Assembly (NCBI RefSeq): GCF_019795295.1
Contig: NZ_JAIMCG010000001.1
Location: 1-64,000 of the forward strand
DNA length: 64,000 nt
Source of the DNA: Cupriavidus sp. AU9028
Lineage (GTDB): Bacteria; Pseudomonadota; Gammaproteobacteria; Burkholderiales; Burkholderiaceae
Direction of reading: 5' to 3'
Position 1 is the first letter of the stretch. Each line of letters opens with the position of its first letter. This document shows positions 26,237-53,568 of the stretch, one piece after another. Under the pieces are notes generated by a model. The model was not told the DNA's origin. It saw only the letters and a list, made by a program, of their open reading frames with translations, and did not search any database. A program made the position numbers and the translations under genes.

Positions 26237-27736
26237 TCATCCGGCCAGTTCCCGGCCGCGCGCGATCGCGGCGGCGATCGCCGCGACGATCTCCTCGCGC
26301 CTGGCGTCGTCATCGACACGCAGCGCGTAGGAGGGGTGCCAGGTGGCGATCAGCCATGCGTCGGCCAGGCGCACCGGCTCCTGCATATAGTCGCGCAGGC
26401 TGGCCTTGCGGTGCAGGACCGCGCCCAGCGCGGTCCCACCGAGCGTAACGATGACGGTGGGCCGCAACCGGGTCCGTTCCTCGTCCAGCCAGTGCGCGCA
26501 CGCTTCCACTTCCTGCTGGGCCGGCGTCTTGTGCAGACGCCGCTTGCCCCGGGCGATCCATTTGAAATGCTTGACCGCGTTGGTCAGATAGACCGTGTCG
26601 GCGCCCACGCCGGCGCGGCGCAGCGCATCCTCCAGTACCTTGCCAGCGGGGCCGACGAAGGCGCGGCCCATCAGGTCTTCCTGATCGCCGGGCTGCTCGC
26701 CGACGAGCATCAGGCGCGCCGCGTCGGGGCCGCGACCGGGTACCGCCTGGGTAGCATGGCGCCACAGCTCGCAGCGCCGGCAGGCGTCCAGCGATGATGG
26801 AATTTCCCGCACCGGCTGCGCGCGCTGCGCGTCCACCGCGACCTGCTTGCCCGGCATGCTGCCAACCGCGTTGGCCTGCCCGACGCGCCGGGCGCCGTTG
26901 CGCGCTTCGGCGACCATCGACGGGATCAGTCTGCCTTCGGGCAAGCCCTTCCAGAAGCGCACCGGCATATGCTGCTGCAGTGCCGCCTCGTTCAGCCGCG
27001 CGGGATTGAAGATGCTGCGATAGTAGGCGAGCCACATCGCTTCGACCTGGTCTGCGCCGGCGTCGGCGCGCAACGACGCGGCATCGCTGGCCGTGTCGGC
27101 GGCGGCGTTGGCGTATTGCAGCGTCTTGCCGTCCCACAGCGCGCTGCCCTGCGGTGTGCCGATCCACCAGGTGGTCATCCCCATCCGGCGTGCGAAGTGA
27201 TCGGCCGCCCAGGCCAGCACGTCATGTTCGGGTTCGTACCACGCCAGGTATTCCGGTACCGCACCGTTGTCGCGACGGTGGAATCGCACATAGGCGATCA
27301 TGTCGTGCTTGGCCCGGCGCACCGATTTGGCCATGCCGTACAGCCGCGCGCCATCCTCGTCGGCGGCGGAGGCCACCGCCCGGTCGCCCTGGTACCAGCG
27401 CCACAACACGCGGTAGAGAAAGGCCCAGCGCTGGGGGGAGCGGTACAGCGCCGCGTCCTGCAGCAGGGCAGCCAGTTCCTTCGAGATCCGCACGTCGGGA
27501 AGAGGGCGGTCAACCCCGCGCTCGTCCTGCTTGCTCGAGTCCGCCAGTACTGCCGAGGCACCGGGGGAGGTGTACTCCAGGCCCAACTGCTGCCCGCCCA
27601 ATGCCTCGGCGTCGCGCCGATCCGACCATTGCACCGCCTCCGGCGGCCAGCCTGACGCCAGTGCACGCAACGCCTGCGCGCGCCAATCCGGGTAGCCGCC
27701 TTCGACGATCAGGACCGGGCCGCCGCGATGCGTCAC
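26237..27736 (-). CDS. TIGR03915-like DNA metabolism domain fused to a UdgX-type uracil-DNA glycosylase
   Basis: 499 aa fusion. Residues 1 to ~290 match the TIGR03915 'probable DNA metabolism protein' that accompanies the radical SAM partner (for example LYRVLWRWYQGD..MAKSVRRAKHDMIAYVRFH). Residues ~312-499 are a UDG-superfamily domain: Fe-S cysteines C319-X2-C322 and C413, active-site GEQPGDQEDL (346-355), and the UdgX hallmark KRRLHKTP (398-405), in which H402 corresponds to the histidine that captures the uracil abasic site covalently in mycobacterial UdgX. HPSY at 467-470. The GTG start at 27736 overlaps the upstream stop (GTGA), so it is coupled to the radical SAM gene and under its LexA box. 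Confidence 0.88.
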   Translation of the reverse strand: MTHRGGPVLIVEGGYPDWRAQALRALASGWPPEAVQWSDRRDAEALGGQQLGLEYTSPGASAVLADSSKQDERGVDRPLPDVRISKELAALLQDAALYRSPQRWAFLYRVLWRWYQGDRAVASAADEDGARLYGMAKSVRRAKHDMIAYVRFHRRDNGAVPEYLAWYEPEHDVLAWAADHFARRMGMTTWWIGTPQGSALWDGKTLQYANAAADTASDAASLRADAGADQVEAMWLAYYRSIFNPARLNEAALQQHMPVRFWKGLPEGRLIPSMVAEARNGARRVGQANAVGSMPGKQVAVDAQRAQPVREIPSSLDACRRCELWRHATQAVPGRGPDAARLMLVGEQPGDQEDLMGRAFVGPAGKVLEDALRRAGVGADTVYLTNAVKHFKWIARGKRRLHKTPAQQEVEACAHWLDEERTRLRPTVIVTLGGTALGAVLHRKASLRDYMQEPVRLADAWLIATWHPSYALRVDDDARREEIVAAIAAAIARGRELAG

Positions 27737-28944
27737 AGCAGGGACAGCTGCACGGGAGCCGGCGAAAGGGCTCGCCGCAACTGCTCGGAGGGCGGGTCCC
27801 CCACGCCGGGCCGGTAATCCTGTACGACCACGAACGGCTTGAGCTTGTCCATCGGGCAGCGCAGTCGCACCAGGTCTTGCCAGCGCACGGCGCGGGCACG
27901 GCGCAGCTCGACGATCCGCCTCGCATTGCGCATGCCGATGCCGGGCACCCGCGCAATCAGCCGTTGCGGCGCGCGGTTCAGATCGACCGGGAACGCGTCG
28001 CGGTGCGACAGCGCCCAGGCCAGCTTCGGGTCGATGTCCAGTGGCAGGTCGCCCTCGTTCTCCAGCAGTTCCTCGGCGCGGAATCCGTAGCCGCGCATCA
28101 GGAAGTCGGCCTGGTAAAGCCGGTGCTCGCGCAGCAGCGGCGGTGCCTTGGCTGGCAGCGCCGACGGACTGTCCGGAATCGGGCTGAACGCGGAGTAGTA
28201 CACCCGCTTGAGCTTGTAGGCGCCGTACAGGGTTTGCGCGGTCTGCAGGATCGTGCGGTCGCTGGCGTCGTCGGCGCCGACGATCATCTGCGTGCTTTGC
28301 CCCGCCGGCGCGCGCACATCGGCGCGCTTGTCATGCTCGGCTTCTTCCTGCGCCAGGCGAATCGACCCCATCGCCCGCTTGATGGTGTGCGCGTTTTTCT
28401 CCGGTGCCAACCGCTGCAGGCCGCCGTCGGTCGGCAGTTCGATATTGACGCTGAGACGGTCGGCATGGCGGCCCGCCTCCGCAATCAATGCCGGGTCGGC
28501 ATCCGGGATGGTTTTCAGATGGATATAGCCGCGGAACTGATGCTCCTCCCGCAGCGAGCGGGCCACCTGCACCAGCTGCTCCATCGTGTAGTTGGCGCTG
28601 CGGATGATGCCGGAACTGAGGAACAGGCCGTCGATGTAGTTGCGGCGGTAGAAGTCGAGCGTCAGGTTGACGACTTCCTGCGGCAGGAAGCGGGCGCGCG
28701 GCACATTGCTGGAGCGCCGGTTGACGCAATACTGGCAATCGTACTGACAGAAGTTGGTCAGCAGGATCTTCAGCAGCGACACGCAGCGGCCATCCGGCGT
28801 GAAGCTATGGCAGATGCCGGCGCCGGTGCTCGCGCCAAGGCCGGGGCCGCCCAGCGAATCCCGCTTGGGCGCGCCGCTGCTGGCGCACGAGGCGTCGTAC
28901 TTCGCCGCATCCGCGAGGATTTCGAGCTTGGTGAGCAGTTCCAT
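27733..28944 (-). CDS. putative DNA modification/repair radical SAM protein (TIGR03916-like)
   Basis: 403 aa. Radical SAM cluster C66-X3-C70-X2-C73 (NFCQYDCQYCVN) in a TIM-barrel domain, preceded by a conserved N-terminus with C20, C45 and C54. The C-terminal region has a helix-hairpin-helix (IARVPGIGMRNARRIVELR, about 329-347), a DNA-binding motif. Family reaction unknown; members are almost always paired with the TIGR03915/UdgX gene that follows here. The ATG at 28944 lies 10 bp downstream of a perfect LexA box, so SOS induction is predicted. Confidence 0.88.
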   Translation of the reverse strand: MELLTKLEILADAAKYDASCASSGAPKRDSLGGPGLGASTGAGICHSFTPDGRCVSLLKILLTNFCQYDCQYCVNRRSSNVPRARFLPQEVVNLTLDFYRRNYIDGLFLSSGIIRSANYTMEQLVQVARSLREEHQFRGYIHLKTIPDADPALIAEAGRHADRLSVNIELPTDGGLQRLAPEKNAHTIKRAMGSIRLAQEEAEHDKRADVRAPAGQSTQMIVGADDASDRTILQTAQTLYGAYKLKRVYYSAFSPIPDSPSALPAKAPPLLREHRLYQADFLMRGYGFRAEELLENEGDLPLDIDPKLAWALSHRDAFPVDLNRAPQRLIARVPGIGMRNARRIVELRRARAVRWQDLVRLRCPMDKLKPFVVVQDYRPGVGDPPSEQLRRALSPAPVQLSLL

Positions 28945-28954
28945 CTGCGTGAGA

Positions 28955-28970
28955 CTGTATGGATATACAG
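28955..28970 (-). promoter_or_regulatory. LexA (SOS) box over the radical SAM/UdgX promoter
   Basis: CTGTATGGATATACAG fits the consensus CTGT-N8-ACAG exactly, with flanking A and TA extending the palindrome. On the minus strand a TATAAT -10 hexamer (plus-strand positions 28972-28977) directly precedes it. LexA would cover the -10 to +1 region and block transcription of the gene starting at 28944. The match is read directly; regulation is inferred. Confidence 0.85.
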
Positions 28971-28993
28971 TATTATACGCAGATCCGGCAGCG

Positions 28994-29203
28994 TCACCGT
29001 ACCTTCTTCAACGCCTCTTCCTTGTGAATCGCCGACTTGCCGCTGCGGGCGCTTTTCACTTCATATTGCGGCTCGTCCGGCGATGCCTTGGCGACGTGCC
29101 CGCCCGCACGGGCGGTCCCGGTCACCTTGCGCGTCACCGTGCCTTCCGTGCTGCCCTGCGAAGTATTCCACTTCACCTTGTCGCCCTTGCTCAGCGTGGC
29201 CAT
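28994..29203 (-). CDS. DUF2945 small Tudor-like protein
   Basis: 69 aa basic protein: MATLSKGDKVKWNTSQGSTEG, then TVTRKVTG and a conserved YEVKS..GK.AIHKEEAL end. This matches the DUF2945 'hypervirulence-associated TUDOR domain' family, whose function is unknown. The ATG at 29203 has AGGAGA 5 nt upstream; the in-frame codon at 29257 lacks this. Confidence 0.82.
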   Translation of the reverse strand: MATLSKGDKVKWNTSQGSTEGTVTRKVTGTARAGGHVAKASPDEPQYEVKSARSGKSAIHKEEALKKVR

Positions 29204-52250: not shown

Positions 52251-52266
52251 CTGTTTTTTTATACAG
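52251..52266 (+). promoter_or_regulatory. LexA (SOS) box upstream of recA
   Basis: CTGTTTTTTTATACAG fits CTGT-N8-ACAG exactly, embedded in the longer dyad TACTG...CAGTA. A possible -35 TTGCC at about 52239 and -10 TATACA overlap it. It lies 244 bp upstream of the recA start and 70 bp upstream of the divergent response regulator, so recA is the expected target. Confidence 0.85.
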
Positions 52267-52509: not shown

Positions 52510-53568
52510 ATGGCCATGGATGACGGCAAGAAGGGCGCGGGCGTGAGCGCCGAGAAGCAGAAGGCGCTGGCTGCCGCGCTCGCCCAGATCGAGAAGCAGT
52601 TCGGCAAGGGCTCGATCATGCGCATGGGCGACGGCGACGTCGAGAAGGATATCCAGGTCGTGTCGACCGGTTCGCTGGGCCTGGACATTGCGCTGGGCGT
52701 CGGTGGGCTGCCGCGCGGCCGGGTCGTCGAGATCTACGGGCCGGAATCGTCGGGCAAGACCACGCTGACGCTGCAGGTGGTCGCCGAGATGCAGAAGCTG
52801 GGCGGCACCTGCGCGTTCATCGACGCCGAGCATGCGCTGGACGTCAACTATGCCGGCAAGCTGGGCGTGGACGTGGGCGAGCTGCTGATCTCGCAGCCGG
52901 ACACCGGCGAACAGGCGTTGGAGATCGCCGATGCACTGGTGCGTTCCGGCTCGATCGACCTGATCGTCATCGACTCGGTGGCGGCGCTGGTGCCCAAGGC
53001 CGAAATCGAGGGCGAGATGGGCGATTCGCTGCCTGGCCTGCAGGCACGCCTGATGAGCCAGGCGCTGCGCAAGCTGACCGGCACCATCAAGCGCACCAAT
53101 TGCCTGGTGATCTTCATCAACCAGATCCGGATGAAGATCGGTGTGATGTTCGGTTCGCCGGAAACCACGACCGGCGGCAATGCGCTGAAGTTCTACGCCT
53201 CGGTGCGCCTGGACATCCGCCGGATCGGCTCGATCAAGAAGGGCGACGACGTCATCGGCAACGAAACCAAGGTCAAGGTGGTCAAGAACAAGGTCTCGCC
53301 GCCGTTCCGCGAGGCGTTCTTCGACATCCTCTACGGTGCCGGTATCTCGCGCCAGGGCGAAATCATCGACCTGGGCGTCGATGCCAAGATCGTCGAGAAG
53401 GCGGGCGCCTGGTACAGCTACAACGGCGAGAAAATTGGCCAGGGCAAGGACAACGCCCGCGAATTCCTGCGCGAGAATCCGGACATCGCCCAGGAAATCG
53501 AGAACAAGGTGCGCCAGGTGTATGGCGTGGTGCCGATGAACGGCACGCCCGCGCTGGCCGAAGAGTAA
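52510..53568 (+). CDS. recA: recombinase RecA
   Basis: 352 aa. Walker [10 protein letters not shown] (77-85), the DNA-binding loop L1 [23 protein letters not shown]2 region [26 protein letters not shown], and an acidic-tail C-terminus. Central to homologous recombination and to LexA cleavage. The ATG at 52510 follows AAGGACG; an ATG at 52516 is possible. Confidence 0.97.

Follow-up and report, generated by a model that had tools for sequence, protein, structure and literature searches.

What would call into action a radical SAM protein whose gene runs directly into that of a uracil-DNA glycosylase? The question is raised by a palindrome at the promoter of such a pair of genes in the window, by which we mean the whole stretch of 64,000 nt that was analysed. 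To judge from sequence and from its comparison among bacteria, DNA damage very probably induces the pair. The palindrome would be the operator through which LexA represses the operon, made of a radical SAM gene and a gene coding for a TIGR03915-UdgX fusion, and we infer binding, repression and induction with high confidence.

TIGR03916 is the one NCBIfam match of the radical SAM protein (Table 1), which carries CxxxCxxC at residues 66-73 and has its closest relative in the named collection in Cupriavidus agavae (86% identity). A helix-hairpin-helix match near its C end (HHH_3, 25.4 bits) stays below the cut-off of 27. Compared with solved structures in a profile search, the protein gave a weak ComEA-related match (E 0.0066), and spore photoproduct lyase was absent from the two matches of that search. 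Besides CxxxCxxC, cysteines 20, 45 and 54 are invariant in 42 aligned sequences, and they possibly make a second metal site. In the fusion protein, the TIGR03915 (DUF4130) part scores 188.7 bits for a cut-off of 112.25 and the TIGR03914 (UdgX) part 238.5 bits, over its cut-off. GEQPG is found at 346, GKRRLH at 397 and HPSYALR at 467. The 30 matches listed among solved chains all fall on the UDG part and none on the TIGR03915 part, with top matches, all at 2.2e-43 to 2.4e-43, that include 6ail (Uracil DNA glycosylase X). As given in the available text of PMC10359453, the loop histidine of UdgX forms a bond to DNA and motif B reads HPS(S/A)(L/V)(L/V)R. Motif A (GEQPG) and an arginine loop ending in histidine are common to that enzyme and to the fusion. 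By contrast, motif B is partly different, HPSYALR coinciding with it only in HPS, L and R, and the domain is here fused to TIGR03915, whereas solved UdgX-type chains have some 205-229 residues.

Table 1. Features of the operon, its promoter and the recA region (positions in the window)
Feature	Position	Strand	Remarks
TIGR03915 (DUF4130)-TIGR03914 (UdgX) fusion gene	26237..27736	-	499 aa; GTG start; 4-bp overlap with the radical SAM stop
TIGR03916 radical SAM gene	27733..28944	-	403 aa; 540.2 bits, cut-off 343.5
LexA-type operator CTGTATGGATATACAG	28955..28970	.	strict CTGT-N8-ACAG; predicted
Operator with flanks, TACTGTATATCCATACAGTC		-	
-10-like hexamer TATAAT	28977-28972	-	1 bp upstream of the operator; sequence match
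Hva1_TUDOR gene	28994-29203	-	co-directional with the radical SAM gene; ends 49 bp before its ATG
Second strict box	52251..52266	.	ends 243 bp before recA
recA	52510..53565	+	TIGR02012, 570 bits

Read on the minus strand, the promoter runs TATAAT-A-CTGTATATCCATACAG-TCTCACGCAG-ATG, with the ATG at 28944 and a gap of 10 bp between operator and ATG; the transcription start would fall within the operator. This order of hexamer, box and start codon, the fit of the box to CTGT-N8-ACAG, the overlap of the radical SAM stop with the start of the next gene and the site of the same form before recA had all been noted in a preliminary description of the locus, and the sequence bears them out. The box meets the beta/gamma-type LexA operator CTGT-N8-ACAG; Table 1 of PMC9578287 gives the E. 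coli operator as TACTG(TA)5CAGTA. A consensus scan for sigma-70 promoters had no match on the minus strand at this place, so that the -10 is identified by its hexamer alone; the single match of the scan, at 9 of 12, falls on the plus strand, where it overlaps the box. It may be asked whether the box is real but LexA control minor, the pair being mainly expressed by read-through from the Hva1_TUDOR gene, which lies on the same strand at so short a distance, with no terminator-like site in 28850-29150. However, the -10 hexamer and the operator stand between both genes and orthologues retain the box, and we hold read-through to be an unlikely main source of expression. As for control by LexA at the operator, counting sites in the window is weak evidence on its own: there are two strict sites for 0.42 expected, and 8 of 100 shuffles of the window reach at least two.

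The same caution applies to the whole genome (4.68 Mb in 42 contigs), where 25 strict CTGT-N8-ACAG sites are found against 21 for the reversed pattern, so that the bare pattern alone proves nothing. From this control, the chance of finding a site in any one stretch of 60 bp is about 2.7e-4. The genome has a single match to the LexA model, with two boxes at the lexA promoter. These two are among 12 of the 25 strict sites that stand at genes for LexA, RecA, the TIGR03916 protein, two ImuA proteins, an error-prone polymerase, helicases (one UvrD/PcrA-like, one of the YoaA/Rad3 type, the latter by weak matches), an SRAP protein, whose gene stands behind a small ORF, and a Glyoxalase_7 protein (two sites); one further site, on contig C38, precedes a hypothetical gene, and genes are thus assigned at 13 of the 25, while inspection of three more sites gave no identification. 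The exact 16-mer of the TIGR03916 operator is also present upstream of the SRAP unit and of the UvrD-like gene. Taken together, the boxes look like an ordinary SOS regulon into which the radical SAM/UdgX pair fits. The strict box at each of the two imuA genes (G000:C7 and G000:C22; L004, L012) suggests two translesion cassettes in one genome. Two adjoining strict boxes lie between the Glyoxalase_7 gene and a divergent hypothetical gene (L015:1501-1535), and this boxed gene may resemble the SOS-regulated mmcA of Caulobacter.

What carries the argument is the conservation of the box. Among 150 genomes drawn from the Burkholderiaceae, TIGR03916 was over the cut-off in 30, the window's genome included. 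The gene is patchy within the window's genus, being present in six and absent from eight of the 14 genomes listed. The preliminary description had proposed a scan of TIGR03916 promoters across the family, with absence of the motif counting against LexA control; the strict box precedes the gene in 30 of 30 genomes, starting 34-45 bp before the HMM match and lying about 9-17 bp from the start codon (as picked by the analyst among in-frame candidates). Two sets of control stretches of equal length from the same 30 loci gave 0/30 and 0/30, and base shuffles 0.0018 strict boxes per promoter. Around the box, TA before and T after are kept throughout the 30 genomes, 26 of which also have a final A. 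In the same genomes, the promoters of ung, a uracil-DNA glycosylase gene, have no box, strict or widened, in any of 29 cases (the thirtieth gene, split in genome G052, is omitted). Position and conservation in the whole family sample make the site more than chance. In two genomes of group g15 (L039, L044), an inverted repeat whose arms measure some 17-18 bp is centred on the box, as read by eye.

Beyond the family, draws at the level of order (200 genomes, 12 over cut-off), class (274, 7) and phylum (398, 84) yielded 86 further distinct genomes, once G221 had been dropped and excluded from the counts; its gene is split and has no box within the 250 bp read. In the other classes of the phylum, 54 of 54 genomes, Alphaproteobacteria to judge by named loci, carry GTTC-N7-GTTC or its complement at a distance before the HMM match that is mostly 28-60 bp (about 103 bp in one family), for a background of one in 581 windows. 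Among the 32 genomes of the same order or class, strict CTGT-N8-ACAG is present in 17 and its widened form, CTG[TG]-N8-[AC]CAG, in 22; the latter is weaker evidence, as its background is 19/651 windows compared with 4/651 for the strict form. Three genomes of family f26 have GWACGNNCGTAC before TIGR03916. All told, a LexA-type box is found in 101 of 116 genomes by the two strict patterns and in 110 by widened ones, the motif classes beyond the strict ones having been widened after inspection of the data. The six genomes without such a box are G206 and G597, which have a canonical LexA and yet no box, G679, and three of the Stenotrophomonas type. In a set of 80 named loci that overlaps the genome sample, one or the other strict form is present in 62. 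A gene tree of 196 rows, built by a quick method, requires ten changes of operator type compared with a shuffled mean of 75.2, and its well-supported branches force at least three for the GTTC label. With 63 open forks, unsure deep forks and operator labels assigned post hoc, this tree suggests that the operator type changed several times.

If LexA is the regulator, the operator at TIGR03916 may be expected to look like that at lexA itself. A LexA match (E <= 0.001) was found in 63 of 63 genomes sampled, over the cut-off in 59, the others being the three f26 genomes, which have a divergent LexA, and G679. With motif classes written after inspection, TIGR03916 and the resident lexA have promoters of one and the same class in 55 of 62 genomes: 48 of 55 outside the family and 7 of 7 within it. 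The 48 comprise 24 of GTTC-N7-GTTC, 21 of CTGT/G-N8 (one of them, G316, also fits the GWAC class) and three of GWAC. The discordant cases are G206 and G597 (no box), G613 and G934 (lexA promoter outside the class) and three f63 genomes. G513 has CTGT-N8-ACAC at the TIGR03916 gene and CTGG-N8-ACAC at lexA. In G679, which has no box at TIGR03916, the LexA model is matched at its C-terminal part only (62.8 bits); its copy of the gene (L075) is the highest-scoring TIGR03916 among the matches listed for the phylum draw, with 659 bits. The f26 loci (L046, L047, L049, L207-L209) combine a divergent LexA of 98-100 bits with GTAC-type palindromes at lexA and TIGR03916, which resemble the noncanonical betaproteobacterial motif. 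In Verrucomicrobia, TGTTC-N4-GAACA is present at both lexA promoters read, and TGTCC-N4-GAACA at one of the two TIGR03916 promoters, the other having none. A Rhodospirillales MAG has GAACAAACGTTC at TIGR03916 and GAAC-N7-GAAC at lexA; a Hansschlegelia genome and an Acetobacteraceae MAG have a full box at lexA and none at TIGR03916.

Another repressor of the S24 or phage type could recognize the same CTGT-N8-ACAG half sites in place of LexA: extra S24-type matches to the LexA model do occur in several genomes, and the available part of PMC8565304 describes SOS genes of Bacteroidetes as using non-LexA S24 repressors. Yet the window's genome has its single LexA-model match, and the motif agrees with the one at lexA from one motif type to the next, so that we consider such a substitute highly improbable. 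A fortuitous palindrome before a constitutive operon, such as the modest excess over the reversed pattern and the shuffles of the window might invite one to assume, is scarcely credible, since the class follows the resident lexA promoter in most genomes, and it is rejected on the ground of family conservation and of the ung control. Control by LexA, as the preliminary description interpreted the site, is therefore strongly supported by comparison, through the 30 boxes in 30 family genomes and a motif that mostly tracks the host's lexA promoter; the other part of that interpretation, the apparent absence of earlier reports, did not stand.

We take COG4277 to be the TIGR03916 family. SOS control of the pair has precedents of the same kind; what is added here is the Burkholderiaceae, the co-variation with lexA, a predicted UdgX-type UDG and partners without a UDG domain. 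According to the accessible part of PMC8565304, SOS control is predicted in Bacteroidetes for a UDG operon, COG1573-COG4277, with earlier SOS regulation of such a system cited for Verrucomicrobia and Alphaproteobacteria. The accessible part of PMC3765255 assigns the domain of TIGR03915, DUF4130, to a network of SOS-associated genes with SplB-like radical SAM proteins and UDGs, and proposes that it is a mutagenesis-related enzyme that might modify thymines. The preliminary description knew of no published report linking the pair to LexA, and these papers do not bear out that there is none. In a literature search of partial coverage, the titles and beginnings of abstracts listed gave no report of the pair under LexA in Burkholderiaceae, and none joining UdgX with LexA; for TIGR03915, TIGR03916, DUF4130 or rSAM_link_UDG, PMC3765255 was the sole paper found, and for COG4277 only PMC8565304 appeared among the best 5 of 7,382 matches.

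To go by the same excerpts, the COG1573-COG4277 operon is like the present one in that the local SOS repressor is predicted to control a UDG-domain gene together with its partner. It differs by its host group and operator; here the predicted UdgX-type UDG is joined to TIGR03915 in one protein, and SOS-type boxes persist in several relatives whose partner is devoid of the UDG domain. The domain association of PMC3765255 is the same as here, but its accessible text is a neighbourhood analysis that gives no LexA site for the pair. A further parallel is splB, a radical SAM repair gene under LexA in alpha- and betaproteobacteria, with boxes across differing LexA motifs and the same divergent-motif argument (PMC3323433, in the portion available). 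That paper deals with multi-chromosome betaproteobacteria and names splB and two hypothetical genes, and its main text, as available, contains neither 'uracil' nor 'radical SAM'; the gene studied here is TIGR03916, with a structure search in which spore photoproduct lyase did not appear. The predicted LexA control in nearly all sampled hosts would tell experimenters when the pair acts, and which strains and treatments suit its study. Among species kept in laboratories, a Pseudomonas putida record (L221) contains the gene, and the Caulobacter vibrioides control genome has a match.

In the undamaged cell, LexA sitting on the operator, over the transcription start of the two-gene operon, would block RNA polymerase. 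Upon damage, RecA on single-stranded DNA would trigger self-cleavage of LexA and the operon would be expressed. Uracil, or the abasic sites that arise from it, would then be captured covalently by the UdgX part, whose loop histidine is conserved. The radical SAM protein and TIGR03915 would together form a core modifying or repairing a damaged base. This division of labour, between capture by UdgX and modification or repair by the core, is a tentative proposal that we deem somewhat less probable than its contrary.

The composition of the partner gene bears on these roles. Eight of eight partners scanned have TIGR03915, and two of the eight have UdgX. Partner ORFs were found automatically, 192 of them in 196 loci, and their counts are approximate, since some loci probably gave wrong or partial frames (20 of the 192 start at least 30 bp from the radical SAM stop and 33 are cut at the end of the locus). 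GEQPG is present in 133 of 192, and in all 133 a histidine closes the arginine loop (recognized by pattern in 123 and by eye in 10, of which one has a longer loop). Partners of about 280-325 aa without GEQPG are found in Pseudomonas, in Comamonadaceae-type (f49) and in f26 loci. As UDG-less partners occur in several lineages, the radical SAM protein and TIGR03915 make up the constant part, to which a UDG domain may or may not be added; the published label of 'UDG base-excision system' fits these lineages badly. Where present, the UDG part is predicted from its motifs to cross-link to DNA instead of turning over as a glycosylase.

The Xanthomonadaceae follow a different track. Their TIGR03916 gene has GTCTCA-N5-TGAGAC instead (with one mismatch in G888), and the three Stenotrophomonas-type genomes carry this palindrome there and not a LexA-type box. 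The lexA promoters examined there have TTAGTAGTAATACTACTAA, with a variant in Pseudoxanthomonas, and TGTACAAATGTACA stands at the additional lexA that Xanthomonas and Pseudoxanthomonas possess. GTCTCA-N5-TGAGAC occurs in 41 of 60 Xanthomonadaceae genomes, and the reversed pattern in none of 60, which is below the expectation from composition (about five sites in 60 genomes, by the analyst's reckoning). The palindrome was noted at L110, L111, L115, L232, L261, L263 and among L299-L380. Among the loci listed (30 of the 41 genomes, one site each), it precedes a DECH-box helicase gene in at least 11, TIGR03916 in at least five, mraZ in at least four (about 200-214 bp upstream) and recA and rmuC in at least one each. 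Two further listed loci had no Pfam match, and L359 and L377 were outside the Pfam scan. The palindrome perhaps marks a second repair regulon, toward which it points as a candidate. On a broader proposition we are evenly divided, namely that the radical SAM-TIGR03915 core would be a general damage-response module of Pseudomonadota, its operator rebuilt to suit each host's regulator, and that in Xanthomonadaceae it would have left LexA for a second DNA-damage regulon on GTCTCA-N5-TGAGAC, together with uvrA, the DECH-box helicase, rmuC and one genome's recA. Single cases among the loci listed stand before DUF763, AAA_15, dnaB (164 bp) and Cas_Csy1 genes. In Stenotrophomonas-type genomes, the palindrome is also found between uvrA and a divergent gene, read by eye as that of ribosomal protein L21.
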